This document shows, in pieces, positions 1-52,010 of a stretch of DNA of 64,000 nt. Each line of letters opens with the position of its first letter. Position 1 is the first letter of the stretch. A model generated the notes under the pieces. The model did no database searches. It was not told where the DNA came from and was given only the letters and a program-made list of their open reading frames with translations. Where the stretch lies: the NCBI RefSeq assembly GCF_041381155.1, contig NC_091146.1, positions 34,509,328 to 34,573,327 of the forward strand, in the 5' to 3' direction. The stretch is from Argopecten irradians (Eukaryota; Mollusca; Bivalvia; Pectinida; Pectinidae). Made by a program: the position numbers and the translations under genes.

Positions 1-235
1 AGAAACACCCCTAAAGTTGTGATTCCGTTGTCACTTTCTCTATGTATGGAATGATTAAATTGAATGTTTTTTTTTGTTTTGTTTTTGTTTTATATAATTA
101 GGAAATATTACTCTGATATCATACCTTATGTAAAAATTTTACCTCAACCAATATCTGAAAAAATTTCATTAAAAGAATTATAAACCTTTTTAATTTGAAT
201 CAGCATTGAAACTTCATGATTTTCTCCCCTTACAG

Positions 236-23852: not shown

Positions 23853-26800
23853 TCACCTCAGCCCTTTATTGAGGTATTGTACAAACATGTTACATAACAT
23901 AGCTGTATCACTAACAGGATGCATCTTTGTATATACAATAAACTGCCGACGGTGGCGCTGTAACTCTCCCAGGGTCAAAGGTCGTAGAAGTGTGATCTGA
24001 CGAAAGACAAAAAATATCAAATTACTGAAAGTACTGTAAAGTTTTACAACTATAACAGAAGGAAAGTATTCTAACTTCTTACATAATAATTTGTTTTGGA
24101 TAATGATATTTTTTGAAAAGCTTTTGAAAACATTTGTTAATTCCAAAATTTGTAATTTATCAAAGCTATGATATAAATGTCACTGGTTAACAACTCTCTT
24201 TAAGTTCACTTTTGAAACGTTTAAAATTAAAATTCTTGTCTTATTGACTGTTTACTTGCATCTTTTTATATCATATTTTATCATTCATTTTATATCTGAA
24301 GAATTAAACATATTTTAAAATGTTGCTGTAAACATCAATTAGTATCGAAATAACAAAATGAATAACGATGAGTAAGTAATTCTATAAATAGATATAGGTA
24401 CCTTTTCCTTTGTGCCGGGTATTGTTATTTCATCGCCTGGGACGCTCGTCTTCTGGGAAGCCATAAGTACCTAAATGTTCAACAGTAATAACACAGGCAA
24501 GTTAATCAAAGTACTGATAGTACTGCAAACACAACGCAACAGAAACAGATGAATTACCAAAATATATAAACCATTATAAAACTGATTATATTAAAAATCA
24601 TAATAGATGATAACCATTATAAAACTGATATTATCTATTATGATTTTTTCACTAGTGAACCATTACAGAATAGTATGTATTAACTGTGGTGACAAGATTT
24701 GAAATTCATTTGCGTTGTGTTAAAAATGTATTGATAAAACTTTTTTTTTACAACCAATGATTTTTTTAAATATTAAAGTAAATATTTAAGTAACATAAAT
24801 TTAGTCCAATGAGATGTAGCAAGAGTCATCATCTAAGCATATGCCTGGTTTACAGGTGGAGGAAAGCCTAAGTACCCAAATTAAAACCACCGATCAGCAG
24901 CCAGTACATGGCAACTGCCCCACATGGGATTCTAACTCGTGAACCAAGAGGCGGAGAGCTAGAGGTAATATGTTGGGACATAACCACTCGGCTACCGCGG
25001 AACCTCAAGTCAAGGGCAATTTGGTGTTAGAAATGTTTATAAATCATGTAGCTTCTTTATGATCCGACCGCAAGAACTGCTTGAATCGCAATCATACGAA
25101 TCCATCCTAGTGAAGAAGTATATCAATCCTTTCCATCAAATACATTACATTTAATGCACAATAATTAATTTTTCTTTGTTTTCAAACCAAATCTGGCTTT
25201 CTGTCAATACCATTTCTGCATACCACTATGGAAAACAAAAGGCCACATGGGCCTTAACGGTCATCTGACTGTTAATACAATAAATAGTAGAACTGAAATA
25301 CACAGTAAGTTATATTATACCTTTAATGATTTTAGTCTTTTTGACCCCTGCGACCTTGAATGAAGGTCAAGGTCATTCATTTGAACAAACTTAGTAGCCC
25401 TTCATTCCACCATGCTACAGCCTAAATATTTGGTGTCTAGGCCTTTTAGTTATTGACCAGATGTCATTTATAGATTTTAGCCTTTTTGACCCCTGTGATC
25501 TTGAATGAAGATCAAAGTCATTGATTTGAACAAACTTGGTCCCTTCATCCCAGCATGCAACAGGCTCCATATCAGTACCCTGGGCCTTTCGGATAATGAG
25601 AAGAAGTTGTTTGAATAAAAAGTTCAGATGACCTAAAAAATCTGAGGATGGAGCAAAACCCCAACGTTATCCACAGGGGGCCAACTCAATGAAAATGGAT
25701 ATTGTCATACATTTTTTGTATTTGGAGGATGTACTGATGAGTATATATGACAGTCATGTGATTTTTTTCGAAAAAAACGAGATTTGAAAAATTATTAAAA
25801 AATCAGGATATTTACTATAAAACAGAGAAAGGGACGACAGTCGCCATATTGGAATTTTTACCCCCACCTCGATTAAAGTTAATTTTTTCACAATAGTATA
25901 CCTTTTTTCCTAGAGTCATAGTCACGCATCAGTCCTCCGATAATCCATAATCACACACTTACCATGCAAAAGCATATAAACGATGTCTATATAGTCGAAC
26001 GCAATATTTTAATCCAAAATTACCGGCGCTTTCTGACTTGTGACATCGAAAGCAATGTCCTAGTGAAGAGCGATTAGATTGTAATTCAATGGGTTTAGTC
26101 AGAGGTATTCCGATACGTTTTAATATTCAAATTTTCCGCGAAAACAAACGTATCGGAATATCTCTGACTAAACCCATAGAATTTACACTGCAGGGGTAGT
26201 CACTCTAGAAATCTAGAATTATTTCTATACATAGGTGAAAGAATGATGTTATAAGATAAAATCCTGTGCTAACCTCATTTCAGCAGGAAGTTTACAAATG
26301 GCTACGTTCCATCATCACTGGAGATGATAGTACCGCACAAAAGTTACTGGGTATCACAAAGTGCATAAATTAATCCCATTTATAAGCACCGATGTCTTTT
26401 TTTAAAAATTTTTTTTATCAGATTATGAAACAAGAGGCCCAGAGGGCCTGTATCGCTCACCTGTTTTTTTGTTAGTAATTATCACAAGAATAAAATGTGT
26501 TTGGCAACTATTGTGAGAATCATCCCCTACAGTATACTTACACTGACAGTGTCCTGGGTGATTTTGTCAAGCTCATACAGGAAATTTGTAGAGGACAGTG
26601 GTTGCTGAAGAAATTAAAAAAGAAATTTATATTCTTACAAAGTAATTTTATTTCAGCTATTTGTAAACTGAATGAAATGGAAAAAGAAATTTATATTCTT
26701 ACAAAGTAATTTTATTTCAGCTATTTGTACCCTAAAGTACGGTGGAGGTATAATTTTAAAGGAAACTTATACTCTGTCAACAGACTACCCATCTACCTTA

Positions 26801-29519
26801 TCTCGGTCACCAAATTATGACATATGAAACATTTGTAAAACATACAGAAAGCTTAAAGTTATATTGCATGCTAATTTCACTGTAACGATATGCTACAGAT
26901 AAGATTAATTATCATTAACTCAGTTGATATTTATTGAAGTTATCGTGTTTGGGTACAATAACAATATTATTCCTCAGGGAAGTATCTACGTAAGTTAAAA
27001 TCGGAAAAGTCCCATTTTCTCACTCGTTCGAGATCTTTCAATCAAAATTTTTACAATTTGTTCAATTTATTTTTTTGCGTTCACACTTTACATTTTGTGT
27101 TCACACTTACATTTTGTGTTAACATTCCTATTTTGTGTTTAATAATGTTACTTATGTGTTCACATTTACATTATCTGTTCAATGTCGTATACTATGTTCA
27201 AAACCCAATTTGTTATACATTTATTTGTTCAAACTTACATTTTGTGTTCACACTTACGTTTTTTGTTCAAACTTAAATTTTGTGTTCAAACTTACATTTT
27301 GTGTTCACACTTACGTTTGTGTTCAAACTTACGTTTGTGTTCAAACTTACGTTTTGTGTTCAAACTTAGATTTTGTGTTCACACTTACATTTTGTGTTCA
27401 AACTTAAATTTTGTGTTCAAACTTACATTTTGTGTTCACACTTACGTTTGTGTTCAAACTTACGTTTTGTGTTCAAACTTAGATTTTGTGTTCACACTTA
27501 CATTTTGTGTAGCCATATTTGGGGGAGGAGGTTTCCTATTTAGCAGAGCATCAACAATCTGGTCCCCTGGCAACCTGTCTCCCCTCTGCAGTGTAAATAA
27601 TGGACTGTCCCATCTTTGGTTTGAGTTTGGTGGTTCAAATCTCATAATTAAAGCATCAAGTCTACAAAATATTTTTTTTCACAATTAAGTCATAGTTTTT
27701 TTCTCTGTTAATTTTATGACTACTTGCTGGTAGGTATAAGCCCCAGGAGCAAAAAATAAACAAACATATTTTAGGATCTAAGCTTTAAAAGGAATGTGCA
27801 TAATACAGTATAACCCCTCTAACTCGAACCAGCATTCCTCGAATACCCCCAATTTGTCAAACTGGTCGCATGGTCCAGTCCGTTTCCCTATATACAGTGG
27901 ACCCGCAATAATGTGGATGCCGATAGTCCGGAAATCTCACCATCTGGACAAAAATGTCAGGGAACGGATTTCCTTAACATCATTTATACTCACTAGTCCG
28001 GATATTCGGATTCCAAATCTGGAACTCCATATAAAATAACAATTTCATTGGTCCATAACAATGTTCAAAACTATTTATTATCAGGGTTTTGTTAGGCCAA
28101 GGACGTAGATATAGGTTCTTGGTTAGGTAGTTTGAAACAATCCGTTACATCGGATCAAGAGTGGTACTGTATAGGTACATAGCTATACTGGCAAACATCG
28201 TATACAAACAACGATGACTTTTGGTTTCGTCTTTCAAAAAAGAAATACGTTAATTTCATATAATTAACATAATGATATGGGAAAAAACTTTAAAACAGAA
28301 CAAATGAAGTATTTATTTTAGTACATGTAAGTTGCATAAAAACCTATGATATTGATTACAAGATCAAGGGGAGTAACTCGTACATGACATTTTAAAATTG
28401 ACCAAGAACATGAAATTCAGCAGTCCGGAAAATTTGTAATCCGGACGGTTTAGCTAGGCTGGCAACGAAGATGTCCGGATTATCGAGGGTCCACTGTATT
28501 TCCTCTAATAAAACCCTAAATAGCTCAAACAGCTATTCATTGAATACCCTTTATTCCTCAAACAGTTTATCCCTCAAACAGTCTTATACCTGGTATCTGG
28601 TATTTTAGTAAGCTCCAAGACTTGTACAAATTGGGCTGGGCAATACAAATATTGTAGGGGTTATTTGTAAACATTGATACAATTTTTAGGGGTAATTGAC
28701 AGGTTTTTGATGGGAATCTAATCCCTGTGTACGCATATTATAACTGGAGCACTGATATTTCTAACAGTAGATGAATGACAAATCCTGATTTCTTATCCAC
28801 AAATATAACTGGCTACACTAACAGTAGATTGCTATGGAAACTTACACTTCCTGTGTGTATTGTTGATCTGGTTCTCTCTCCTGGTTCCAGCCAGATACAG
28901 TGTCTTTACTGCTGTCACAGAACACCTGTAAAATTATATCAACATTGTACCTTATAGGAACTTTAGGTTCAATGAATAGGCCCATGAGACCTGTATCATT
29001 TACCTAGACATCTCCTCATTTACTCTGCTGGATAATAAACTCAAAAACTCTAGGGAGGTTGTGGAGAGGGTGGTTGGTAGGGTTGGTGGGGTGGTTGGTA
29101 GGGTCAGGAGAGGGTGGTTGGTAGTGTGTGGGGAGGGTGGTTTGGGTGTAGGGTCAGGAGAGGGTGGTTGGTAGGGTCAGGAGAGGGTGGTTGGTAGGGT
29201 TGGTGGGGTGGTTGGTAGGGTTGGTGGGGTGGTTGGTAGGGTCAGGAGAGGGGGTTGGTTGGTAGTGTGTGGGGAGGGTGGTTTGTAGGGTCAGGAGAGG
29301 GTGGTTGGTAGTGTGTGGGGAGGGTGGTTTGTAGGGTGAGGAGAGGGCGGTTGGTAGGGGTGTGGGGAGGGTGGTTGGTAGGGTGGCTGGTAGGGTATGG
29401 GGAGGGTAGTTGGTAGGGTGGATGGTAGGGTATGGGGAGAATGATTGGTAGATGAGTTGATGAAGGGAGTGAGATAATGATGATGATGATGATGATGATG
29501 ATGAGATGATGATGATATA

Positions 29520-29604
<85 letters not shown>

Positions 29605-32600
29605 GATAATGATGATGATGATGAGTGATTGGTGGATGTAGGGTCATGTAGAGGAGATATAAGTATGAGAAGAATACCGATATAAACTAAAGAACCACAC
29701 GTACCGTACACTGTGGGGTCTGGCACGCCTTTGTGATACAGTATAACTCATATCGAAATCCTATAACACAGAAAAACAGAGGAAAAATAAAATGTGTTAT
29801 TGGCAACATAAACAAGGGTAGTTATCAACTCTCAAAATGATTTGTGTTGTACAGTCGATTGAAGGGGTTAGATAGATCCAAACTTAGGATTTCAAGACAA
29901 CTCTTAAAACATATACTTCATGGTAATGGTAATAGGCAATGTAATCTAAAATATCTTCAGTGTTTGACATTTTATTTTTTCTTCATTAATCAATTAAAAA
30001 CCATAAGCCTTGATGAACCATTCCTATGTCTTCAGATGCCTTATAAACGTTAGTAACACCATTGAAATTATGTACTGTAAAAATTGTTTTTTGTGACTGC
30101 TGTATGTTTAGATGGAAATATATTTGCAGAAATCACTTTACAATTACAAATTTATAAGACTGTTCAAATGTGAAATGAAATCCTATGTAAAAATTTAGTC
30201 ATGGTCTGAGTGTGTACTAATTTCACTACACTTTAGATGTAAATAGCTTTTTGGCAGTACTGCTAAAAATCATTTTCATCTCTTATTTGTACATGTAAAA
30301 TTAAAAACTTATCATAACAAGCAAATTCGTGAAATCAATATCCCTTGCTATTCGTTAATCAAAGGCCCATAACTCCACCAAATAGGGTCCAATAAAAGTC
30401 TGGATCAGACTTTGCAAAGGCCTTGTGACATTTAACCATGTTACGATGTTTTGAGAAAATCTGATAATATTTGCGAGAGTTATTGAATGGAAACAGACAA
30501 AATAGCGTTTTTTCAAAGGCCCATAACTCCGCCAAATAGGGTCCAATCAACGTCCGATCAAACTTGGCCTAGGCCCTGAGACATTTAAGCATATCACCAA
30601 TTTTTGAGAAAATCCAGTAATAATAACTTGTCATAAGACTTTCTTTGTCAGTATTGACTTATTATGCAGAATAAGGCATTCACTAATTTTTGTTATGACA
30701 CTAAATAAGGTTACTACAGACACCTACAGAGTTATCTGACCTTTGCTATATGAAAGTATTTAGTTTACACACAGCGGAATATCTTTACCTTTAATGTAAT
30801 GGGCTTATTTGCCAGTAGGGACTTATTTGTAACTTGTCATAAGACTTTCTTTGCCAGCATTGACTTATTATACAGATGAATAAGGCATTTTCTGATTTTT
30901 GTTATGTTACATTGTAAGTAATTTTACCTTTGATATAATTTAACGAGTCCAGGATAACCACATCCTCCTTGTTTACATATCTGAAAAAAAATGTAGTCAA
31001 ACAGTGAAAGACTTTACAAATCAAGGCCAACAAAATAAAATAACAGTTTTTCAAGAATGACCCTCCAAAGTACAGTAAATCAAAGGAAGTCTTATTTGAT
31101 AAGGCCAAAATAAAATAAAACTTTGTTTCCTTCCATCTTCGCTCACATACACTTAAATAAACAGTAATATAAGATAAAGAAAGGTTTTACAATACAAGGC
31201 CAAAATAAAGGGATAGTTTTTTCTTCTGTCCTCTTCTGACATATAAAACAAGAGGCCCAGAAGGCCTGTATGGCTCACATGTTTTTTTTTGTATTTTTTT
31301 TTTACTAACTATCACAAAAAGTCTTACAATCAGAAATAGTAAAATTGACACAACATTTAGCTTAATTTTGAATCCCAACCATATAACGACGTTATCAATA
31401 TCATATGACTATGAGTGTTAGTCAAAGCTAAGTTTCACAATTTGTGCCAATTTGCGAAAGTTAAACGCATGCAAAAAATGGTTAGTTTATAGTATGTTGA
31501 CATTTAATTTATGCTAACCCAAGAAACTCACCTCTGAATGGCAGATTTTAATGTACCCCGTACGTCCTTTTCCTTCTTGGAGTCTGATCAATTGTCCAAT
31601 GAAAACAAAACAAATCATTTAAGAAAAAGCTTCTACAAAAGAATCGCAAAATTTCGAATTAGTTTCAACTATATGTACCTTTTCATGAACTTTTAACAAA
31701 ACAAAACACTAGAAATCTCTCATCGATCAATCCCTTCTTTACCTCCGCAAGGACGTATATGAGAAGGATAAGTAACAATGGGCTTTGGGGAAGTACAACG
31801 CAGGAGCTTTTGTGTTTGTGCACTGACCGTGACAATGGGCGAAGACTAATTTTCCTTTGATATCCGCCGGTGCAGCCTTTGATGTAGCTTGCGGGTGCGA
31901 GGGTTACCGTCTTACTTTCTGAAGCAGGCCGTCATTTCATGAGCTGTCATATTTTTTTAACGACAATTTAAGACATATCTTCTAAATCTTCCGTCCTTAA
32001 AGCAAGTAATAAACGTTGTGAAAATTAATAAACTTTACATTGGTGTTTCGTTTGACTCGATAAGACAAGCATTGTCATTGTTGAGAAAAATGGTTTTTAT
32101 TCACGGTTCATAGGCGTCTTGCGTGGTGTTCAGTAGTGTAAACAGACAGTGACGAATCCTTCTCACTTATTAATCCTTGACCTCAGAAATATTTTTAGTT
32201 TAATTACAACCATTTTTATATAATAATTATACTTTTGGGTGCATGATGTTCATTTACTATACTTGTACTAATTCTAACAACGTCCTTCAACTTCACAGTA
32301 TAATCAGCTGACCAAAAACGAAATATCTATTATGTAAATACTGTATTCAACCAATAAGTGCCCCTATCCCTATCAAGGAGGGAGGAATGTGGTCAATCAT
32401 CCGATCTACTGCTGTATAAACGTATCAAATATAGATTGGTGACCTGCAAGTAGCTCAGCGGTAGAGCATTTGGCTAGTGTTCGGAGGTTCCAGGTTCAAA
32501 TCCCAGTCTGGCTGCTACATTTTCACCTCTCCTAGGTTACAACATTGGTGCCGACTAAAATACCTACGGTGGTGCTATGTTATGGGTCTTGTATAATGTC

Positions 32601-36354: not shown

Positions 36355-39300
36355 ATGCCCGAAGTGCTAGTCGAAGAACAAGAACCTGAAGCAAAAAAGC
36401 AAAAGACGATGCCGCTAGACAATGTCATTCTAAGGTTTGCTAAACTGACGGAGAATGCCTTCACCCCAACTCGAGGCTCCAAACTGGCAGCAGGCTACGA
36501 TTTGTATAGGTAATTACAGAAACATTAGGCCAAAAAAAAATGTCTGTTTTGGGTTACATTGACAAAAAATTTTTTATTGTCTTTCACTCTAAAATAATAG
36601 CCAGAGAGCGATTTCTCGAAACAAAAGTTCAGACTTAAGTCTTTACCTTATGATATCACTGAAGGCAAGGCCTTAAAGGGCGCAGCCAGACGTTTCAGTA
36701 AACATTACTTATGCAATGTTAAAAAGTTCAATTTATGGAAAAATAAACGGAGCCGAATTTGACGTTCTGTCAATAATATATAGTATACATATATTAAAAA
36801 ATACCCCTATATACTATATAAAAAACACCAGGAATGAAATGCATCGCTGGCCAAAATGTTCACCACCTTCGGTAAAAGTTCTGTAAAATTTGTTCTGGGC
36901 AATGTCTGCATGTGTCACCGCTCCTATAATACAATAAGTTGTTATTCTTCACATATATCAACACTAACCTGTTCACAACCCCATCACAATAAGTTTAATC
37001 CCATGTCATTTTGGAAGTTTGCAGATTTCGCGGCCACTTTGTTTTGTTCCCGAATCCATGCGCTGATATTTTTTTAATATATGTATACTATATATTATTG
37101 ACAGAACGTCAAACTCCTGTGAATAAACGGAGCCGAATTTTCTGTTTATCTTTTATTCATATATCTCACTCTATCCTTGTCCCAAAATCCCCATTTTAGA
37201 AGGAAATCCACATAAGAGGAAGAAGAATTTTTTACACCTTACCAATAACCGCCTTCATGAGTGAAAGATAGTATATATGAGAGAAGAGAATATATTATTA
37301 TGTATGCTTCTTTTTATGTGTGGACGGAATAGTGTGATTGTTCTTGAATGGTTGATATAAGATGAAAGTATGATAATTGACAGTATGATGAGATAATAAA
37401 GACGATGTGATGATGAATGCTGATGATGAAGATGAAGATGTTGATGATTATTAGCTCACCTGGCCCAAAGGGCCGGTGAGCTTATGTCATGGCGCGGCGT
37501 CCGTCGTCCGTTGTCCGTCGTCCGTCCGTCTTCGTCGTCCGTCGTCCGTCTGTCCGTCAACATTTCCTTTAAATCGCTACTAGTCATAGAGTTCTCCATG
37601 GATTGTAACCAAATTTGGCCACAAACATCCTTGGGGGAGGGGGAACAGAACTTGTATAAATTTTGGCTCTGACCCCCCGGGGGCAGGAGGGGCGGGGCCA
37701 AATAGGGGAAATAGAGGTAAATCCTTTAAATCGCTACTAGTCATAGAGTTCTGAATGGAATGTAACCAAATTTGGCCACAAACATCCTTGGGGGAAGGGG
37801 AACAGAACTTGTATAAATTTTGGCTCTGACCCCCCGGGGGCAGGAGGGGCGGGGCCCAATAGGGGAAATAGAGGTAAATCCTTTAAATCGCTACTAGTCA
37901 TAGAGTTCTGCATGGATTGTAACCAAATTTGGCCACAAACATCCTTGGGGGAAGGGGAACAGAACTTGTATAAATTTTGGCTCTGACCCCCCGGGGGCAG
38001 GAGGGGCGGGGCCCAATAGGGAAAATAGAGTAAATCCTATAAATCGCTACTTGTCCTAGAGTTCTGCATGGATTGTAACCAAATTTGGCCACAAACATCC
38101 TTGGGGGAATAAGAACAGAGTTTGCATAAATTTTGGCTCTGACCCCCCGGGGGCAGGAGGGGCGGGGCCCAATAGGGGAAATGGAGGTAAATCCTATAAA
38201 TCACTACTTGTCCTAGAGTTCTGCATGGAATGTAACCAAATTTGGCCACAAACTTCCTTGGGGGAAGGGGAACAGAACTTGTATAAATTTTGGCTCTAAC
38301 CCCCCAGGGGCAGGAGGGGTGGGGCCCAATAGGGGAAATAGAGGTAAATCCTTTAAATCGCTACTAGTCCTAGAGTTCTGCATGGATTGTAACCAAATTT
38401 GGCCACAAACATCCTTGGGGGAAGGGGAACAGAAATTTGTGTAAATTTTGGCTCTGACCCCCTTTGGCAGGAGGGATGGGGCCCAATAGGGGATTTAGAG
38501 GTAAATATTCAAATTCCTTCAGAAAAAAAAACAATGAACCTGTATTCAGAACATTACTTGGCATTACAAACCAGGTGAGCGATACAGGCCCTCTGGGCCT
38601 CTTGTTTCTTATATTTTCATGTATGCATTACCTTAGAAGTGATTCGCACATCGTGTCCGAAGATCGTGCCCTTCGGGCACGAAAGGCTGCGCCCTTATAA
38701 CTTATATGAATACTTTTGACTTCAGCCAAGTTTGTTTCGAGAAATTGGGGCCAGAAGTGGAATCTGAGATCGAAATCCCCACTTTTACTTTATTTTCGTA
38801 GAAAAGTGGGGAAAAAAATTAGGGTCGGGGGTAAAAAATTAGGGTCAGTCTCGCGATCGGTCGGGTAACCCAAAACAGACATGTATTTTTTTGGCCATAT
38901 AGATTATTTCTGGTAGGCCAATTATGATTAATTTATGAGCAAAAAATATGTGCGCCATGAGCAGCAAAACACGAACTACAGTGACCAATAAGGCCAAAAC
39001 ATGAATATTGTGTTATTAGTTTGTCTGTCAACAATGAAATCCGTTGGGTTTTTTTTTCAGGAGCCTATGATTATCTGATTATTATTCTCTCAATAAAATT
39101 CATTGTTATTTTTCAGTGCATAATTCCTCCAATGAAATTCTTTGTCACTTTTTAGTTGCTAGCATAAGTATTATATTCCTCCAATTAAATTCAGTGTTAT
39201 TTTTCAGTGCCTTTTATAAGTATAATTATTCCTCCAGTGAAATTCATTGTTATTTTTCAGTGCCTATGAGTATACATATAATTCTGCCAATAAGATTCCT

Positions 39301-42300
39301 TATTATTTTTCAGTGCCTAGTATATTATATTTTTTCTCCCATGAAAATCATGGTTATTTTTCAGTGCCTTTTATAAGTGCAAATTCCTCCAGTGAAATTC
39401 ATGGTTATTTTTCAGTGCCTATGAGTATACATATAATTCTTCCCATAAGATTCCTTGTTATTTTTCAGTGCCTAGTATATTATGTTTTTTCTCCAATGAA
39501 AATCATGGTTATTTTTCAGTGCCTTTTATAAGTATAATTATTCCTCCAGTGAAATTCCTTGTTATTTTTCAGTGCCTAGTATATTATATTTTTTCTCCAA
39601 TGAATTTCATTGTTATTTTTCAGTGCCTAGTATATTATATTTTTTCTCCAATGAAAATCATTGTTATTTTTCAGTGCCTTTTATAAGTATAATTATTCCT
39701 CCAGTGAAATTCATTGTTATTTTTCAGTGCCTATGAGTATACATATAATTCTTCCAATAAGATTCCTTGTTATTTTTCAGTGCCTAGTATATTATGTACA
39801 TGGTTATTCCTCCAATGAAATTCATTGTTATTTTTCAGTGCCTAGTATATTATATTTTTCTCCAGTGAAAATCATTGTTATTTTTCAGTGCCTTTTATAA
39901 GTATAATTATTCCTCCAATGAAAATCATGGTTATTTTTCAGTGCCTTTTATAAGTATAATTATTCCTCCAGTGAAATGAAATTCATTGTTATTTTTCAGT
40001 GCCTATGACTATATTTTTCCTGTTTTTTTCAGTGCCTATGACTATATTATTCCTGTTATTTTTCAGTGCCTATGACTATACTATTCCTGTTATTTTTCAG
40101 TGCCTATGACTATACTATTCCTGTTATTTTTCAGTGCCTATGACTATACTATTCCTGTTATTTTTCAGTGCCTATGACTATATTATTCCTGTTATTTTTC
40201 AGTGCCTATGACTATATTATTCCTGTTATTTTTCAGTGCCTATGACTATACTATTCCTGTTATTTTTCAGTGCCTATGACTATACTATTCCTGTTATTTT
40301 TCAGTGCCTATGACTATACTATTCCTGTTATTTTTCAGTGCCTATGACTATTATTCTTATACTGTTATTTTCAGTGCCTATGTTATTTTTCAGTGCCTAT
40401 ATTATTCCTGTTATTTTTCAGTGCCTATGACTATACTATTCCTGTTATTTTTCAGTGCCTATGACTATATTATTCCTGTTATTTTTCAGTGCCTATGACT
40501 ATACTATTCCTGTTATTTTTCAGTGCCTATGACTATACTATTCCTGTTATTTTTCAGTGCCTATGACTATATTATTCCTGTTATTTTTCAGTGCCTATGA
40601 CTATATTATTCCTGTTATTTTTCAGTGCCTATGACTATACTATTCCTGCCAGACAGAAACAGATAGTTAAGACAGATATTCAGATAGCTCTGCCAGATGG
40701 ATGTTACGGCCGTGTAGGTGAGTTGTCTCCCCTTGTCAGTGCTTATGCTGGTACTGATAGTGAAGTAATCACTCCAGAAAAGAAAAGTGGTCTTTATACA
40801 CAGGTGCAGTTGTGTTGAAAATTTATTAATTGGAACCCAAGAAAAGTGGTCTTTTTAAGCAGAATGGTCACTTAAAGGTTTTGTTACCGTCCTATTACCA
40901 GTCATATAAGAATAAGAATATATTCCCATATTGATCTATTTTCAGAATATTTCATATTTTTGAGTGAATTATCGTACAGACATAAAACCCAGTCATTGCT
41001 TGACCTTTTGAACTCTGATTGTTGTATTATTACACCAGAGCCTAACTGCCAATGTTAATACTGGAAAATATCATACATTGGGCTTCGTTGCGGATCACAT
41101 CGGGCTTGCAACACTATCCGCAATGGGACAGAATTCATACGCTGCCAGGAACATAGCAGAGACGGGGTATAATTATGTGTTCAATAGTTCCCTCCCCTGT
41201 CGCTATTGCCTCAGGTAGACTCTGATCTTGATGAGAGTTCCCTCCCTTTGCAGAGAGTTGACATAAACGTTCATCCCGGTTCCAAACTAAATTGCTGACA
41301 AAAAATGGTTAGATCTAGTAAGAGAAACTTTGCACTGTCACTTTTGAGATAATGTATGGATATTTTTATTTTTCAGCCCCCCGGTCAGGGTTAGCAGCAA
41401 AACATTTCATAGATATTGGAGGTATGTAGTATACTATCACAAAGTATGCCGCTTTTGTATTTTACAGAGTTATCTGCCCTTGGGACATCATATGTTTACA
41501 AGCACAACATATTTTTAAGAGAAAACCACATGGCTTTTGCTAGCAGATTAATTACATCACAATCTATACTAATTGGCAAGGGCAGAGAACTCAGTGATAT
41601 GCAACGACGTAATTAGACAATATTGGTAAAGTAGTATGGGTAAAGAGCAATTATTAGCCCAAAATTAATCTTTGAAATAGGCCTATTCCAATTTAAAGTC
41701 CTTCTGTTGGAATGAATTGAGATTAGGTTCAAATCATGCAAACGCCCTGCTTCTAGACTTGGATAAAACAGGTGAATGATACAGGCCTAATGGACCTCTT
41801 GTTATTTTATGCAACATTTGTATCTGTCTATTTTGAATTACAGGAAATGTTTCATGGTTGGCACTTACTTATTTTGTGGGAAGAAATGTTACTGTGCATT
41901 TAATAACGTATGAAAAATTTTGTTGGGTTTTATATTTATGGTTCATTATAATGTTAGGAACCATAAAAATAACAAAAAATTCTACAAATCAAATAGTTAG
42001 TGCTATATACTGTTCTCATAATAAAATTTGTTTTCTCTGCAGCGGGCGTGATAGACCAGGATTATCGCGGAAATGTGGGTGTAGTCATGTTCAACCATGC
42101 GGAGAAAGAGTTTAAAGGTGGGTAATATTCATTGTGAAATTATAGCTAAAAATTTAGGACCAAGGCCGGATGTTTTATAATATTAAATTTGTTTGGGTAT
42201 GATTTCGGTTATAATGGCATTGATGGTGATTATTATATTTTATATTGGGCTGTGTGACTGGGCGGTGTGTACATGTGCTGCTTGGTGTCTTTGGTGGCAT

Positions 42301-45300
42301 GCTTCAGTGAGATAGCACTATAATAAGGGCAAGAGTTTCACTATCACAAGGAGACACAACACAAATATACCACAGTCTCCCAAAACACGCTCTCTGCACT
42401 TCATAGATGCTACACACTAGTGGAGGCCGTCCTTACATGACCCTGGCTGTTAATTGGATTTAAATTAATCAAATCTATGTATGATGTTTCTTGTACAACA
42501 TTGAAAATCACTAAAGGGAGTTGTCTGAAAACCTTATAAATGGAGTTGTTTATTGTCAGCTTGTCTGTGAAAACCTTATAAATGGAGTTGTTTATAGTCA
42601 GCTTGTCTGTGAAAACCTTATAAATGGAGTTGTTTATAGTTAGCTTGTCTGTGAAAACCTTATAAATGGAGTTGTTTATAGTCAGCTTGTCTGTGAAAAC
42701 CTTATAAATGGAGTTGTTTATAGTAAGCTTGTCTGTGAAAACCTTATAAATGGAGTTGTTTATAGTCAGCTTGTCTGTGAAAACCTTATAAATGGAGTTG
42801 TTTATAGTCAGCTTGTCTGTGAAAACCTTATAAATGGAGTTGTTTATAGTTAGCTTGTCTGTGAAAACCTTATAAATGGAGTTGTTTATAGTCAGCTTGT
42901 CTGTGAAAACCTTATAAATGGAGTTGTTTATAGTCAGCTTGTCTGTGAAAACCTTATAAATGGAGTTGTTTATAGTCAACTTGTCTGTGAAAACCTTATA
43001 AATGGAGTTGTTTATAGTTAGCTTGTCTGTGAAAACCTTATAAATGGAGTTGTTTATTGTCAGCTTGTCTGTGAAAACCTTATAAATGGAGTTGTTTATA
43101 GTCAGCTTGTCTGAAAACCTTATAAATGGAGTTGTTTATAGTTAGCTTGTCTGTGAAAACGTTATAAATGGAGTTGTTTACAGTCAGCTTGTCTATGAAA
43201 ACCTCATAAATGGAGTTGTTTATAGTCAACCTGTCTGTGAAAACCTTTTAAATGGAGTTGTTATATAGTCAGCTTGTCTGTGAAAACCTCATAAATGGAG
43301 TTGTTTATAGTCAACTTTGTCTGTGAAAACCTTATAAATGGAGTTGTGTATAGTCAGCTTGTCTGTGAAAACCTTATAAAGGAGTTATTTATAGTCAGCT
43401 TGTCTGTGAAAACCTCATAAATGGAGTTGTTTATAGTCAGCTTGTCTGTGAAAACCTCATAAATGGAGTTGTTTATATAGTCAGCTTGTCTGTGAAAACC
43501 TCATAAATGGAGTTGTTTATAGTCAGCTTGTCTGTGAAAACCATATAAATGAAGTTGTTTATAGTCAACTTGTCTGTGAAAACCTTATAAATGGAGTTGT
43601 TTATGGTCAGCTTGTCTGTGAAAACCTTATAAATGGAGTTGTTTATAGTCAGCTTGTCTGTGAAAACCTAATAAATGGAGTTGTTTATAGTCAGCTTGTC
43701 TGTGAAAACCATATAAATTGAGTTGTGTACGTAGTCAGCTTGTCTGTGAAAACCTTATAAATGGAGTTGTTTATAGTCAGCTTGTCTGTGAAAACCTTAT
43801 AAATGGAGTTGTTTATAGTCAGCTTGTCTGTGAAAACCTTATAAATGGAGTTGTTTATAGTCAGCTTGTCTGTGAAAACCTTATAAATGGAGTTGTTTGT
43901 AGTCAGCTTGTCTGTGAAAACCTCATAAATGGAGTTGTTTATAGTCAGCTTGTCTGTGAAAACCTCATAAATGGAGTTGTTATCCCCCGCCCAACGAAGT
44001 TGGCGGGGGATATACAAATGGGTTCCGTCCGTCCGTCTGTCCGTCTGTACGAATGGTTTCCGGAGCATAATTCTAAAACCAGTAGAGATATATCCAAGAA
44101 ACTTCATACACACATTGGTCTTATGGTCTAGTAGTGCCTTTTGCTATTTTTAGGTTTTCATTTTTTGCATTTTTTCCGTAACCATGGAAACATTGCTGAA
44201 AATATCATATTTTTGTACCAGGTTCGTTTCCGGAGCATAACTCTAAAACCAGAAGAGATCTTTCCACGAAACTTCATAGACACATTGGTCTTATATGGTC
44301 TAGTAGTGCCTTTTGTTATTTTAAGGTTTTCACTTTTTGTACTTTTTTCTGTAACCATGAAAACATTGCTGAAAATGGCAGATTTTTGTGTAAGAATCGT
44401 TTCCGGAGCACAACTCTAAAACCAGCAGAGATATTTCCATGAAACAGACACATTGTTCTTATGGTCTAGTAGTGCCTTTCGCTATTTTTAGGTTTTTATT
44501 TTTTGTGCTTTTTTCTGTAACCATAGAAACATTGCTGAAAATATCATATTTTTGTAGCAGGTTCATTTCCGGAGCATAACTCTAAAACCAGCAGATATTT
44601 CCACGAAACTTCATAGACACATTCTTTTTATGGTCTAGTAGTACCTTTTGCTATTTTTAGGTTTTCATTTTTTGCACTTTTTTCGTTACCATGGAAACAT
44701 TGCTGAAAATATCATGGTAAATGGTAAATGTTACTTTGCAAAACTCCACCCATCTTTGTGTATATATAAAGTCTAATATAAATGTCAAGGCTGTATACCT
44801 GATTCAACAATTGCAGCCCCGCTCTACTTGAATTATACTCCATCTTTCTTCAGCTCAACTTCCTTTTTCCTGTTTTTTTTTATACACATAAGTCTCCACA
44901 ATCAAACTTACTTCAGCTTTGATATCTCCATTGGCGGGGGATCTGAATGACTATGTCCTTGTTTATAGTTAGCTTGTCTGTGAAAACCTTATAAATGGAG
45001 TTGTTTATGGTCAGCTTGTCTGTGAAAACCTTATAAATGGAGTTGTTTATAGTCAGCTTGTCTGTGAAAACCTCATAAATCGAGTTGTTTATGGTCAGCT
45101 TGTCTGTGAAAACCTTATAAATGGAGTTGTTTATATAGTCAACTTGTCTGTGAAAACCTTATAAATGGAGTTGTTTATAGTCAGCTTGTCTGTGAAAACC
45201 TCATAAATCGAGTTGTTTATGGTCAGCTTGTCTGTGAAAACCTTATAAATGGAGTTGTTTATAGTTAGCTTGTCTGTGAAAACCTCATAAATGGAGTTGT

Positions 45301-48300
45301 TTATAGTCAGCCTGTCTGTGAAAACCTTATAAATGGAGTTGTTTATAGTCAACTTTTCTGTGAAAACCTCATAAATGAAGATATTTTATACTGTTAACAA
45401 ACTTAAAGGTGATTGAATCGCTCGACTTTTCTGCGAAAACCTCATAGTTGGGAGTTGCTTTGTGTGTGATATGACCTTGAAACTTTCGTAACTTTTGTAG
45501 ACAGTGTTCCAAATAGTGTATAGCCAGTTGTAGGGGATGATATTTTCACGTTTTCGTGGGACATTGCTATATAATCGCGAAAATTTGATCCGCAAAATAA
45601 TGAAAAATGGTTGAATGATATCTACTCTTAAATGCATCGCGAAAATTTGAAGTCGCTGAAATTTGATTTCTCGGTTTTAGATCAAATTTCGAACATAACC
45701 AGCTATACAGTAATGTAGATATTTAATCACTCGACTCATCTGCGAAAACCTAATAACTGTAGTGTTGGGAATCGGTTGCATTTTCATTAGGGCTGGGTAT
45801 TGGAAGGTCTAAAACGATACGATACGTATTGACAATTCACTGAAACAATACACGATACGCATTGACGATACAGTGGACCTCTTTTTCAAATTCAGTTCAC
45901 CATCGTGTTTTGAATATTGTGATAATTAAAGACAATTTTGATAAAACATTCTATAACATGGAAAAAATCTACCAAACATTTGATTCGGTTTATCATCTGT
46001 GTTAATTAATTTCTGTCAATTCGTATTCTTAGTTATGAAAAGGCATTTCTAATCCATCTAGGTGACACAGATGCTTTAAACACTTCCTTTTGATTGAGAT
46101 GCTCTTACTTGAATAATGTTTTAGAATATATTTTGTTTGGAATTTCCTATTTCTATAAAGAAAACAGTATGTTGAGTTGTTAAAACGATACAGCGATATA
46201 CAGTATGTTTGCGTATTGATATTCGATACGCTGCTGAAAACCGATACGTATCGGTATATCGATATATTGATCCAGCCTTAATTTTCATGATGGATCATCA
46301 CTTCCAAGCAAGTGACTGATGATGACTAATGATCGATCATGAGCTGAAGTTTACTTCATAGATTTCATTTTATTTACTTTTCTACCAAATTACCAGTCTA
46401 CTTTCACTTTTGTTTCTGGGAAAATCCATATGTCCTGATGTTGTAGCGGGGATCGTCTTTCACACATTTACATTGGAAAATGAAGATGTATTATTGTCTA
46501 AGTGCTACATTTCGTTGAAATTGTTTTCCTAATAAAACGCTAGCTTCCTTGGCGAGAAACACCTGCCGTGACCCACAAAAATCTTATCATTATATATTGT
46601 AAATGTAAGTCAAACTGTGATCGATCATGAACGAAGATCGATTAATCGAAACAACACTAAATAATTGGATTTATTTTTCAGTCAACAAAGGTGACCGCAT
46701 TGCACAGCTTGTCTGCGAGAGAATTTACATACCAGAGCTAGAGGAAGCTGAGGTAATCCTAAACAAAATATGTTCCTTACCTTTTAGACATTTCTTATCA
46801 TCCTAGTTTCTTTCTTTTTCAATGACAGCTCTGTCACAAATTCAATACCGTATTCGACCCAATAAGTGCCCAGGGCGCTTCAAAAAATTGATAAAAATGA
46901 AAAGGTGCTAATAAGTTAAAATTATTGCAAATTTATACCGTTTTATGTAATTTTGGTCCTTATTTATGCCTGGGCAATTGAAATTGAGGCCTCAAAAAGG
47001 GGGAGGGGCGCTTATAGGGACATGGGCGCTTATTGGGTCGAATACGGTAGTTGTAAAATAATAATGTAGTCCAGAGGACAGACAAGCTTTTCTGTTGTCA
47101 AACAGTGCTTGTTACACATCCAATATTTAGTATGTCGTAGTGATGGGTAATTGGTTTGAAATCATAATCGATTATTGATTTGTAATCGGAAGTCATAAAC
47201 CGATCGATAATCGAATAAATTATCGGTTTCTAGTTAATAAATATTTTGGATATGAAATTCTGCTGTTATAATTTGCTGTCATTCTCATTGGTATAGAATA
47301 CTGACACAAAATTAAAGCTTAAAGTCTTAATTAATCAAGGTTCTTGTAATATTTCATTTTCTGTTGAGAAAAGATAGTACATTTCACAGCTACTCAGGCC
47401 AGTAACCATTGAAGGATATTTGTTCAATTATACCTGGTGTGTAGAAAATAAATCTACAACATACATTGTACCTTATATATTTTTGATAGCAATTATCAAT
47501 TATGGATTTTCATAATCGATAATCATAATCGGTAAGGGCATACTAATCGGCCCACTAATGGTGTTCCGATGAATCAAGTTTGTCGAGTATCATTGGTTTG
47601 AGGTGTTTGATCAATTAATCGAGTTAGAAATCTGTAATCGAGTTTGTAGATTTTCCGACACCATAATAAACGAAAAAATAAAGTTAGCTGATCACTAAAC
47701 ATTAAAAAAAATCATAGCAAACTTGTTAAAATCATTCCCTTGTGTTTGGTTGTCACTCATATCATTTCAAATTTTAAACCTTTAGACGAAATTGAAGAGC
47801 GCATAAGCACTACGTAGTAATGTAAACATTAAGGTGCGCATGGTTTGTGAAGAAAATAAACGACATGAAAACATGACAGCAGAGAGGCCTCGCGATCGTG
47901 AGCCTTTGAAGGAAATTTTTATATGTTATACATCACGGAAAAAAATAATCAATTTTAATTGATCATTGATTGGTTAAACAAAACTGATGATCGACCATGA
48001 AATTTCAACCGATTCCCAACACTGCGGCCCTCACTAGTATGTTGTAATGTGTATCTACAAAATATACAGTGGACCCTCGATAATCCGGACACCTCCGTTC
48101 CCAGCCTAAACCGTCCGGATTACGAGTTTTCCGGACTGCCGAATTCCGTGTTCTTAGTCAATTAAATTGTCACGTAAGAGTTACTCCCCTTGACCCTGTA
48201 ATCAATGATAGGCTTTTATGTAATATACGTGTATCATAATTAATACTTCGTGTGTTATGTTTTATAGGTATTTTTATATCATTCCGTTAAAAATATTGAA

Positions 48301-49924
48301 TAAACGTATTTCTTCTTCAAAATACGAAACCTAAAGCCATTGCTAATTGTGCACTATGTATGCATATAGCTACGTATCCTACTCTTGATCTATCGTACGG
48401 CAAATTGCCTAACAAAGGATCAATATCATCTACGTTCTTGGCATAAAAAACTATGATAACAAATAGTTGCGAACATTTTATGAACTCATATAATTGTTAT
48501 TTTGTATAATGTGTGTCTTTAATTACCATTTCTACAAGTTTGCTTTCTGACTTACAGACGTTTGTAACAACCACGCGCCCGTTCACGTCTAACTTCGTGC
48601 ACAGTGTCACACACGTGTAAATGGCATATGCCGTAGCCTTTATGTCTTATACCATAGGCGATGAATTCGAATAGATTCACATACTATCTCACTTTATTGT
48701 ATCCGATACTCATAGCGATATATTCTGCATTCAAAACAAGTAAGGTATCTACAGCATACGTACCCGTACCCAAGCTCAAACTGCATGTTTAAAAGCGTGT
48801 GGCTAAACATATATTGCGTATCTCAATAACAACACTGAAGTTTGATCTCCTATAGAAAACCGTTACATGACTGCATATACCCGTGTGAAAGGTGTTCAGG
48901 TAAACGCCCGTGGCTATGACCTGGCAGCCGTCGTTATGACAACACACTCAGTGTCAAGTGATTGTGTGTATTGTACACATGACTGTAGCTGGCCTTGGAT
49001 TTTCTCGGCACGTGGCGACAACAAATTGTCCGGATTATTGCGGGAATTTATTAACGAAAATTACATTCCGTTCCCAAAATGGAGTTCTGGATTCGGAATA
49101 CGAATTTCCGGACTAGTGAGTATAAATAACGTTACGGAAATACGTTCCCTGACATTTCCGTTCGGATTGTGAGTTTTCCGGACTACCGGCGTCCGGATTA
49201 TCGCGGGTCCACTGTACTGTAAATGTATTTTACCATAATACACGTATTTATTCCACTTTCAGGCCATTGTATAAATGTACTGGTTGTTGGATAAATATAT
49301 CGATAGATTCCACTAGTGGAATAACAGCTCTGGTCTTTTGATTGGTTGAGATTTTCACAAATCAAAATGACATCGTGTTTCTGTACTCGGATCGTTGCTT
49401 GCAGAAGAAACCACTTTTGAAGGTGTATGTGTGACAATGTTATAAATTATAATCTTGCATGTTTTTCGATTAGTTGCATAAACTATCGACTCAAAAGGGA
49501 CTTTATTTATTGGTATTTCTTGCCGTTAGAGAACCTTGGGGTGATTTCGGTAGAATTAGCACACTTAGGCCAAAAAAAAAAATGTATGTTTCAGGTACCC
49601 CTACCTACCCTAGTTTTTACTTCCGACCCTCCCCCACCCATCCTAAAAAAAAAAAAAAAAAAAATTCTCGACCGACCTACCCTATTTTTTTCAGTCATGT
49701 AATCTGAAACATGCATATAATTTTGTTTGGCCTTAGCTATAGGCGGGACTTTAACTTGGTTACATTGGTTTGATGATCATGATATTATTTAGATGGGAAG
49801 TAGATGTCAATTTGTCATAAACATGTCAGAATGTAGTTTTGACAATGATTAGTTTCATGTTCAAGTACCTAATTTCTTTATTCAAAAAAGACGTTTGGTA
49901 AGTAGGAATGCGTGGATAGTGTGA

Positions 49925-49958
<34 letters not shown>

Positions 49959-52010
49959 TATTTATTGAGGGTGGCATATTTAGCATGGAGCTAATCTTCC
50001 ATATGGCCCTCAATTATATAAACACAAACAAAATTGACATAAATCATCAAAATATACATCACATGCATATGATAACAATCTATATAGAATACAATGGAAA
50101 AACACAAGTGAAATGAAACACATACATTACTGTTTCATATACAGTATACGTATACTGTATAGTATATATTCCTTAAACGAAATAATAGGAACTGTTTTGA
50201 TATAGGTAACATATATTAAGCATAATATAAATAAATAATTCATTTAGATTATCAAGTTTGATAGTAAATAATTTCTTAACTTTTGCTTAAAAGTTACAAA
50301 GGATGTGGAGTGTGTTATATCAAGTGGAAGATTATTCCAAGATACAGCTCCAGAGTAGCTGAATGACTTCCTCATTGTCTCTGATTGTAACTTAGGTAAA
50401 AGGAGTTTATTTTCTGTAGCTGATCTGAGTTTGTACAAGCAAGAATTTTGACAAGTTTCAATTAAAGTACATATATAATCCGGTGTCATATTATGCAGTG
50501 CTTTATAAACCAAAATTACAGTATGATATTTTAATCTGAGTTCAAAAGGGAGTGCTTTAGCTTCTTTAAAAAGGGCCAAACTGTCAGATAGTATTGGTTT
50601 ATCTAGCATTATTCTAAGAGCTTTCTTTTGTAGTTTTGTAATATGATTTATTTGTTAAATCAATTCCATATCCAACAACCACTCGCTATGTATGTAGCCT
50701 CTTTTGAGTTGATTTTGAAATAGTTATGGCAACATGTTGTGAGTTGTATATTGCCCTTGACGACATGTTGTGAGTTGTATATTGCCCTTGACGACATGTT
50801 GTGAGTTGTATATTGCCCTTGACGACATGTTGTGAGTTGTATATTGCCCTTGACGACATGTTGTGAGTTGTATATTGCCCTTGACGACATGTTGTGAGTT
50901 GTATATTGCCCTTGACGACATGTTGTGAGTTGTATATTGCCCTTGACGACATGTTGTGAGTTGTATATTGCCCTTGACGACATGTTGTGAGTTGTATATT
51001 GCCCTTGACGACATGTTGTGAGTTGTATATTGCCCTTGACAACATGTTGTGAGTTGTATATTGCCCTTGACGACATGTTGTGAGTTGTATATTGCCCTTG
51101 ACGACATGTTGTGAGTTGTATATTGCCCTTGACAACATGTTGTGAGTTGTATATTGCCCTTGACGACATGTTGTGAGTTGTATATTGCCCTTGACAACAT
51201 GTTGTGAGTCGTGTATTGTCCTTGACAACATGTTGTGAGTTGTATATTGCCCTTGACAACATGTTGTGAGTTGTATATTGCCCTTGACAACATGTTGTGA
51301 GTTGTATATTGCCCTTGACGACATGTTGTGAGTTGTATATTGCCCTTGACGACATGTTGTGAGTTGTATATTGCCCTTGACGACATGTTGTGAGTTGTAT
51401 ATTGCCCTTGACAACATGTTGTGAGTTGTATATTGCCCTTGACAACATGTTGTGAGTTGTATATTGCCCTTGACGACATGTTGTGAGTTGTATATTGCCC
51501 TTGACGACATGTTGTGAGATGTATATTGCCCTTGACAACATGTTGTGAGTTGTATATTGCCCTTGACAACATGTTGTGAGTTGTATATTGCCCTTGACGA
51601 CATGTTGTGAGATGTATATTGCCCTTGACAACATGTTGTGAGTTGTATATTGCCCTTGACAACATGTTGTGAGTTGTATATTGCCCTTGACGACATGTTG
51701 TGAGTTCAATGTATATTGCCCTTGACAACATGTTGTGAGTTGTATATTGCCCTTGACGACATGTTGTGAGTTGTATATTGCCCTTGACGACATGTTGTGA
51801 GTTGTATATTGCCCTTGACGACATGTTGTGAGTTGTATATTGCCCTTGACAACATGTTGTGAGTTGTATATTGCCCTTGACGACATGTTGTGAGTCGACG
51901 TCGTGTATTGTTGTTGCTATAATTTTTTTAATTTTTTAATTTTTTTTTTTCAGTCACTAGATGACACGGACCGAGGTTCTGGTGGATTTGGATCTACAGG
52001 GCAAAAATGA
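36355..52010 (+). CDS. DUT: dUTPase (deoxyuridine 5'-triphosphate nucleotidohydrolase), complete, six exons
   Basis: Exons 36355-36509, 40626-40717, 41377-41421, 42043-42117, 46682-46752 and 51954-52010 total 495 nt, giving 164 aa plus TGA, all GT-AG and in phase. All five motifs of trimeric dUTPases are present: I AAGYDLYSAYD (45-55), II PRSGLA (84-89), III GVIDQDYRGNVGVV (99-112, with the conserved Asp and Tyr), IV GDRIAQLV (126-133), V RGSGGFGSTG (153-162, the C-terminal P-loop-like arm). It hydrolyses dUTP to dUMP and pyrophosphate, keeping uracil out of DNA and feeding thymidylate synthesis. The short charged N-terminus has no mitochondrial presequence, so the product is nuclear/cytosolic. 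Exon 2 is preceded by about 35 copies of its own acceptor. Introns 4 and 5 carry nested transposons and two large minisatellites. Confidence 0.97.
36761..37110. mobile_element. TIR element flanked by 19-bp direct repeats
   Basis: The left end gacgttctgtcaataatata is inverted at the right (tatattattgacagaacgtc); the arms extend about 40 bp. Flanks carry aataaacggagccgaattt on both sides (36742-36760 and 37122-37140). The repeat is adjacent on the left and offset by 11 bp on the right. It lies in DUT intron 1. Confidence 0.65.
37453..38607 (+). mobile_element. Hairpin-ended element with ~150-bp tandem units (AGCTCACC type)
   Basis: The 5' hairpin is agctcacc-tggccc-aaa-gggccg-gtgagct, followed by a cgtccgtcgtccgtt-type run. 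Then come about six units of 150 bp, each with aaatcgctactagtcatag, accaaatttggccacaaac and gaccccccgggggcagg. The 3' end is caggtgagcgatacaggccc then tctgggcctcttgttt. The units are highly alike, so the array is young. It lies in DUT intron 1. Confidence 0.85.
38640..39050. other. DUT intron 1 stretch with an aaggccaaa-family MITE copy
   Basis: 38720-38900 is a minus-strand relative of the 7494 and 14040 copies (gagatcgaaatccccac, attagggtcgggggtaaaa, taacccaaaacagacatg, tttttttggcc). Nothing else is recognisable. Confidence 0.55.
39050..40625 (+). repeat. Tandem array of the DUT exon 2 splice acceptor, ~35 copies
   Basis: From about 40010 the unit is 34 bp: ttatttttcag plus 23 bases starting tgcctatgactatac and ending ctattcctg, exactly the exon 2 start. 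From 39050 to 40010 units are longer and of three alternating kinds (cctatgagtatacat, cctagtatattatat, ccttttataagtata), all sharing ttatttttcagtgcc. Using any upstream copy reads SAYDYTIPVIFQCL then TGA, so only the last acceptor gives dUTPase. Confidence 0.95.
41455..41610. mobile_element. MITE with acagagttatctgccctt ends
   Basis: acagagttatctgcccttg on the left is mirrored by caagggcagagaactcagt on the right, about 150 bp overall. It is the same family as 22806-22970. It lies in DUT intron 3. Confidence 0.6.
42118..42526 (+). other. DUT intron 4, proximal part
   Basis: No exon. 42415-42470 is a SINE tail fragment (gaccctggctgttaattgg). The rest is unremarkable. Confidence 0.4.
42527..45380. 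repeat. 42-bp minisatellite split by a mobile element
   Basis: The unit contains cttataaatggagttgttta and tagtcagcttgtctgtgaaa. About 34 copies lie at 42527-43980 and about 10 more at 44960-45380, interrupted by the element at 43983-44950. The unit is a multiple of three, so the minus strand shows a spurious 14-residue repeat (TINNSIYKVFTDKL). It lies in DUT intron 4. Confidence 0.93.
43983..44950 (+). mobile_element. CCCCCGCC-hairpin element inserted in the 42-bp array
   Basis: The 5' hairpin is atcccccgccaac-like (cccccgcccaac-gaa-gttggcggggg), then ccgtccgtccgtctgtccg. Four diverged ~160-bp units follow (tttccggagcataactctaa, cttatggtctagtagtgcc, gtaaccatggaaacattgct). It ends near ttggcgggggatctgaatg. 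Its architecture matches the 10180 and 37453 elements, but its sequence is different. Confidence 0.75.
45760..46659. mobile_element. hAT-like non-autonomous element, interrupted
   Basis: The ends are TAGTGTTGGGAATCGG (left) and ...cgaaacaacacta (right). Flanking 8-mers AATAACTG (45752-45759) and AATAATTG (46660-46667) are an 8-bp target duplication with one change. It is interrupted by 45788-46280. Its right end is only 22 bp before DUT exon 5. Confidence 0.75.
45788..46280. mobile_element. hAT-like MITE nested in the previous element, 493 bp
   Basis: The ends TAGGGCTGGGTAT and ...gatccagcctta are flanked by a perfect 8-bp duplication ATTTTCAT (45780-45787 and 46281-46288). The interior is rich in cgatac/gtatcg motifs. 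There is no transposase ORF. Confidence 0.85.
46846..47049. mobile_element. 204-bp MITE with TACCGTATTCGACCC ends
   Basis: TACCGTATTCGACCCAATAA on the left is inverted at the right (ttattgggtcgaatacggta), giving TIRs of about 27 bp. Related or decayed copies are at 7364-7818 and near 3300 and 32339. It lies in DUT intron 5. Confidence 0.8.
47557..48025. mobile_element. Probable hAT-like element with a near-match target duplication
   Basis: It begins taatggtgttccgatgaatc and ends accgattcccaacactg, resembling the 45760 ends. The flanks CGGCCCAC and CGGCCCTC differ at one base. Sequence just before it (47147-47556, many ataatcgat motifs) may be a further related element without clear ends. Confidence 0.45.
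48067..49214 (+). mobile_element. Non-autonomous pogo/Tigger-like transposon, 1148 bp
   Basis: CAGTGGACCCTCGATAATCC and its inverted partner (ggattatcgcgggtccactg) are bounded by TA at 48065-48066 and 49215-49216. Such ends with a TA duplication are typical of pogo/Tigger elements. There is no transposase; ORFs up to about 100 codons inside look random. It lies in DUT intron 5. Confidence 0.85.
49567..49735. mobile_element. aaggccaaa-family MITE
   Basis: It starts taggccaaaaaaaaaaatg and ends ttttgtttggcctta. The interior is ccctaccctag and gaccctccccc with a poly(A) run. The same family is at 7494, 14040, 36520 and 38750. Confidence 0.6.
49926..50690 (-). mobile_element. LINE (non-LTR retrotransposon) 3' fragment
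   Basis: A minus-strand reading frame at 50244-50609 has the C-terminal signature of LINE ORF2 proteins: LRLKYHTVILVYKALHNMTP, then YKLRSATENKLLLP, AVSWNNLPLDI and FKQKLRNYLL. Upstream in frame is ITKLQKKALRIMLDKPILSD after a stop. A short 3' UTR ends in a (TTA)n tail at 49926-49960, typical of CR1/Rex-like lineages. It is 5'-truncated and dead, in DUT intron 5. Confidence 0.85.
50735..51893. repeat. 31-bp minisatellite, ~37 copies
   Basis: The unit contains atattgcccttgac[g/a]acat and gttgtgagttgt. Copies differ mainly at one G/A position. The unit lacks stops in all three minus frames and 31 is not a multiple of three, so three long overlapping minus-strand ORFs (336-408 codons) run through it; none is a gene. 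It ends 60 bp before DUT exon 6. Confidence 0.95.

Follow-up and report, generated by a model that had tools for sequence, protein, structure and literature searches.

Tandem repeats that span an exon–intron boundary have been described in the amphioxus Adh3 and globin genes under the name of mirages (PMC3087553, on excerpts of which the following description is based). In the globin gene BflGb6, the minisatellite-like unit combines an intron's end with the beginning of an exon, while in BflGb9 it is the 3′ boundary of an exon that is duplicated. Many mirage units carry AG or GT splice signals, and the length of the arrays is unstable: depending on the haplotype, BflGb6 contains six or three units of 150–160 bp. 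Unit lengths in Adh3 lie between 10 and 72 bp. The amphioxus mirages are said to leave regular splicing undisturbed, and boundary repeats of this kind have been proposed as a source of new introns. Two comparable cases are known from human CBS, as summarized in parts of PMC2630376. The polymorphism 844ins68 duplicates the intron 7/exon 8 junction, resulting in two copies, and RNA evidence indicates that splicing strongly favors the distal copy, which adjoins the full exon; we take the duplicated site to be an acceptor despite the word "donor" in that text because of its position between intron 7 and exon 8 and because a title cited there refers to a 3′ splice site. The second case is a 31-bp variable number tandem repeat (VNTR), c.1444_1467+7(16_21), which by its name comprises 24 exon and 7 intron bases in 16–21 copies. 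For the bay scallop Argopecten irradians, excerpts of a study dealing with repeats (PMC7090048) contain nothing on splice junctions. Here, we analyzed a window of 64,000 nucleotides from this species (NC_091146.1, positions 34,509,328–34,573,327; all coordinates below refer to the window), in which intron 1 of the dUTPase gene DUT ends in a tandem array of 37 acceptor-like sites.

A tandem acceptor array at the DUT intron 1/exon 2 boundary

The original prediction for this locus held that the acceptor of DUT exon 2 had been amplified into a long tandem array, and the array proved to be real: the end of intron 1 (36510–40625, plus strand) contains 37 acceptor-like TTT..CAG sites between 39060 and 40625. 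They fall into two series. The older sub-array (39050–39988, plus strand) comprises 17 acceptor-like units, 15 of which follow one another at lengths of 50–58 bp, while its outer end is formed by a 56-bp unit with an altered core and a 91-bp unit that conceals a further degenerate acceptor site at 39155. For this series, Tandem Repeats Finder (TRF) reports a 155-bp period as well. The younger sub-array (39989–40648, plus strand) comprises 20 units, the last of which extends 23 bases into exon 2 (40626–40648). Sixteen of these 20 units are exactly 34 bp long and show the predicted anatomy of 11 intron bases followed by 23 coding bases; ten are identical (including the terminal copy in the exon), five carry a single C-to-T change, and the remaining one combines the same change with an altered start. 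The other four younger units measure 33, 36, 19, and 28 bp. A 34-bp period, initially ascribed to the array as a whole, is thus found from 39989 onward and does not apply to 39050–39988.

Growth of the array probably proceeded in two or more rounds, first with units of mostly 50–58 bp and later with 34-bp units adjoining the exon. When we searched the window for TTATTTTTCAGTGCCTATGACTATACTATTCC with up to three mismatches, all 17 occurrences were located within 39989–40646, and none was found in any of 100 shuffled sequences. The terminal unit spans the intron/exon boundary in the manner of a mirage, and, likewise as in mirages, splice signals recur in many units (37 acceptor-like sites in DUT and 12 GTAAGT sites in the neighboring gene KTI12; see below). 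The DUT array is a real and extreme boundary minisatellite that is probably tolerated by its host gene.

This host gene is intact. The spliced DUT model (36355–52010, plus strand) has six exons, and five of five introns conform to GT–AG. Exon 1 (36355–36509) is coding and ends at the donor GTAATT; exon 2 (40626–40717), opened by the last acceptor as the sole open-frame site among the 37, is followed by a GTGAGT donor; exons 3 (41377–41421), 4 (42043–42117), 5 (46682–46752), and 6 (51954–52010, including the stop codon) complete the model. Its translation is identical to the NCBI A. irradians dUTPase at 164 of 164 residues, which upholds the predicted extent of exon 2. The protein, with a complete coding sequence, matches PF00692 (E = 5.6e-50) and is thus a member of the trimeric dUTPases, and its top relative among solved structures is the dUTPase chain 2hqu_A (E = 7.9e-73). 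The dUTPase gene is regarded as essential. DUT is also surrounded by other repeats: intron 1 holds six tandem 157-bp units upstream of the acceptor array (37565–38506), and a minisatellite of nearly 5 kb, with a period of 58 bp and ~86 copies, is located just 3′ of the gene (52739–57665).

Acceptor choice and reading frame

We joined exon 1 to each of the 37 acceptors and found that exon 2 remains open for only one of them, the last, in agreement with the original prediction; all 36 upstream acceptors lead to a stop. The NCBI protein contains the exon produced by this last acceptor. Such a single open frame would need no design, since stops are to be expected when an upstream acceptor lengthens exon 2 by a long, AT-rich stretch and when the unit length of 34 is not a multiple of three. 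We therefore rejected the single open frame as a mark of design.

Local splice-site strength was considered as a basis of the choice. Using a score matrix trained on the remaining 12 acceptors in DUT and KTI12, 16 of the 36 upstream sites scored at or above the last acceptor; local strength hence does not mark out the last acceptor, and this candidate was rejected as well. Given only 12 training sites, a score gap such as 6.6 versus 10.7 between near-identical units represents noise. The acceptor at 40236 is identical in sequence to the last acceptor from −155 to +23, so that either position or sequence further into the exon than +23 has to decide between the two. Past the unit, the remaining 69 bases of exon 2 have a purine content of 59%, compared to 35% in the 23 exonic bases of the unit. 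It had been suggested that the acceptor is chosen by position, and this suggestion receives indirect support from the last site being used in the NCBI protein, from the identity of 40236, and from the precedent of human CBS (PMC2630376, in the parts considered here).

We propose that a tandem duplication across the DUT intron 1/exon 2 junction would have given rise to a minisatellite of the kind known as mirages in amphioxus, and that the drift of this minisatellite is tolerated and not selected, because splicing favors the copy that continues into the exon body; we hold this explanation with good, though not complete, confidence. Exon definition with exonic enhancers would select whichever copy leads on into the remainder of the exon. 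The last acceptor would be used since only its copy adjoins the rest of exon 2, with the more purine-rich remainder of the exon and the downstream donor as candidate cues. The upstream copies would be decoys, any use of which would result in an early stop and mRNA decay. What we infer here comprises the use of the last acceptor in RNA, the role of the exon body, the decay of mis-spliced RNA, and the neutrality of the array.

Junction arrays in KTI12 and a MYCBPAP-like copy

Arrays at splice junctions are not confined to DUT. KTI12 is encoded on the minus strand, and a nine-exon model of this gene exactly matches NCBI's A. irradians protein of 275 residues. Together with the identity of the DUT protein, this match agrees with an origin of the window in, or very close to, A. 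irradians, and the bivalve source assumed in the original prediction was correct. The donor of KTI12 exon 6 (27661–27502) is repeated in an array of 19-bp units with 12 GTAAGT sites (27073–27510, minus strand), which constitutes the mirror case of the DUT acceptor array. The first unit takes in 9 bases from the 3′ end of exon 6 and contains the donor itself (ACACAAAAT followed by GTAAGT). When the 12 GTAAG sites were joined to exons 7–9, a full-length protein resulted from the exon-proximal site only, and this is the junction present in the NCBI protein. Among 43 other GTs in the array, five reach the score of the true donor; in several donor units, the GT has been lost. At its other end, KTI12 intron 6 closes with two copies of ~64 bp (26605–26729, minus strand), each ending in CAG. 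This two-copy repeat stops at the junction without including bases of exon 7 (which begins at 26604) and, strictly taken, does not span the boundary as a mirage does.

KTI12 and DUT are arranged head to head. Their start codons, at 36146 on the minus and 36355 on the plus strand, are separated by 208 bases, and this arrangement suggests a promoter common to both genes. A tRNA-Thr(agt) was predicted within KTI12 intron 1 (32445–32515) on the strand opposite to KTI12.

A further acceptor array was found in a decayed MYCBPAP-like copy (PF14646 match), which spans 229–9724 on the plus strand and contains in-frame stops in its upstream exons. Its array (8284–8804, plus strand) consists of nine units of ~55 bp, eight with AG and one with AA; each unit copies the first ~26 exon bases, and the last alone runs on into the exon. 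At several residues, the window copy departs from a 433-aa MYCBPAP-like protein of A. irradians at NCBI (P0243), which therefore probably represents another copy. Owing to these differences and to the in-frame stops upstream, the array is weakened as a working example.

Outside A. irradians, we scanned DUT and KTI12 relatives for duplications of the junction peptides, covering the 240 proteins listed out of 7998 matches for DUT and 1643 for KTI12. Among the matches listed, one of 240 showed such a duplication, namely the annotated KTI12 of Ylistrum balloti (P0123). This protein carries NMATQN twice around VSLPELSSLPPL, exactly at the donor that forms the array in Argopecten, and the residues of exon 7 are missing from the model. 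The annotation reads as if it had been translated through a duplicated donor.

Conservation of the acceptor core

Alignment of the array units revealed an uneven distribution of changes. In the 15 interior older units (39208–39999), a set picked after inspection of the data, the 15-base core TTATTTTTCAGTGCC shows no parsimony steps, whereas the other 30 gap-free columns of the same units show 27, corresponding to an expectation of 13.5 for the core (Poisson P = 1.4e-6). The core itself defines the units, yet none was skipped between 39208 and 39999. With the three outermost older units added, the core had nine steps where 16.5 were expected (P = 0.033). Of the 20 younger units, the 18 with a length of at least 33 bp gave two steps in the core where 5.8 were expected (P = 0.07). 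Counting gap columns as steps gave P values of 1.8e-8 and 7.2e-5, which are inflated. We additionally assessed the clustering of quiet columns in 19 arrays by permutations that ignore the shared descent of units, with the older DUT series entered as 39205–39986 (without its outermost units). The two DUT sub-arrays were the most extreme, with 3 and 1 of 2000 permutations, followed by the next lowest array with 25 of 2000, and the quiet windows of both DUT sub-arrays coincide with the acceptor. No core conservation was detected in the MYCBPAP-like array (six or seven steps compared to 6.2 expected).

One explanation for a uniform core lies in the growth of the array itself: units may have been seeded or converted around the core without any splicing function. 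This possibility, to which we assign tentative credence, adds to the tolerated drift proposed above and does not replace it. Both series share the core but differ in the other parts of the unit, and the growth of the array was plainly recurrent, but we have shown no process that would homogenize 15 bases while the flanks stay different, and none of the 17 other arrays had an equally extreme quiet window. Growth around the core explains the uniformity as well as selection does.

Regulated unproductive splicing, the other possibility raised in the original prediction, has its sole hint in the unchanged core of the 15 older units. In this alternative, the array may be selected as a set of poison acceptors, with a variable share of the DUT pre-mRNA being spliced to decoys, running into stops, and decaying, and with the dUTPase level set by array length or by the supply of a splicing factor. 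The absence of core steps in the 15 older units, the two DUT sub-arrays being the most extreme of 19 with quiet windows on the acceptor, and the stops produced by all 36 upstream sites would all be in line with this. We consider it unlikely, however, as the 15 units were chosen post hoc and the P values are only 0.033 with the outermost three and 0.07 in the younger units, the permutations lack a correction for shared descent, and the core also defines the units; moreover, GT has been lost in several KTI12 donor units, and the MYCBPAP-like array is devoid of core conservation. It is quite unlikely, in our estimation, that selection in a large population keeps the polypyrimidine tract and AG of the decoys while the rest drifts. 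If such a bank of decoys did exist, array length would tune the share of decaying DUT mRNA and hence the dUTP level.

We regard an error of the assembly, with the array shorter or absent in the animal, as very improbable: long tandem arrays are difficult to assemble, but the units differ from each other (older and younger series, variants) and would hardly be the product of stutter, and comparable arrays are present at several loci.

Tandem arrays across the window

Tandem arrays account for 35% of the window (22,425 of 64,000 bases; 37 TRF loci, merged by hand). To place the junction arrays against this background, we required a close copy to match the 30-mer at 25 or more of its 30 positions and to lie within 2 kb, and we drew random intronic 30-mers at least 30 bases past donors and at least 60 bases before acceptors. 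Such a copy existed for the 30-mers at 2 of the 26 junctions in DUT and KTI12, compared with 158 of the 600 random intronic 30-mers. The two-copy acceptor repeat of KTI12 remained below the threshold (best 17 of 30). Based on the hand-merged TRF intervals, 3 of 26 junctions lie inside arrays. An enrichment of arrays at splice junctions was therefore rejected: junctions are not preferred targets; arrays are common, and some cross them. In the two intact genes, the arrays enter exons by only 9 (KTI12) and 23 bases (DUT), and such short entries would fit purifying selection on the coding sequence.

As to a viral or mobile source of the repeat, 25 bases of the unit had no exact match in a viral contig collection, and an Rfam scan of the window returned no family at its gathering score; both results are still compatible with a mobile element. 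The window also contains a single open frame of 751 aa (16120–18375), which encodes an nSTAND3 NTPase with ankyrin repeats.

Discussion

The DUT locus offers a natural experiment on splice-site choice, with 37 acceptor-like sites competing within one intron and with the site at 40236 sharing the sequence of the last one over −155 to +23. It is accompanied by a mirror-image donor array in the head-to-head gene KTI12. These findings also suggest that scallops carry boundary minisatellites, which the papers considered here describe in amphioxus and for human CBS. Such arrays matter for gene annotation, as one of them seems to have distorted the KTI12 model of Ylistrum, and for the proposal that boundary repeats give rise to new introns (PMC3087553, as excerpted).

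Several points weigh against a tolerated array in which splicing favors the copy that continues into the exon body. Pure neutrality leaves the zero core changes in the interior older units, compared to 13.5 expected, unexplained. The NCBI DUT protein may be a prediction made without reads across the junction. In addition, the Ylistrum KTI12 model indicates that the preference for the exon-proximal site may not always hold, unless this model reflects an annotation error.

Compared with the systems described previously (within the parts of the two sources used here), the DUT units resemble amphioxus mirages in that they join the end of an intron with the start of an exon and carry splice signals. 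Unlike BflGb6, DUT has 37 acceptor-like sites in one intron; unlike the amphioxus cases in general, the host is a mollusc and a donor array is present in the neighboring gene. The duplication of an intron end together with an exon start is also shared with CBS 844ins68, which differs in having two copies and RNA support, while the 37-site array in DUT is known, as are the other arrays in this window, from DNA sequence alone. The 31-bp VNTR of CBS resembles the KTI12 donor array; relative to the DUT array, it lies on the donor side and has a larger exon share, and it is not an acceptor array. The DUT array represents a known type of repeat in extreme form.

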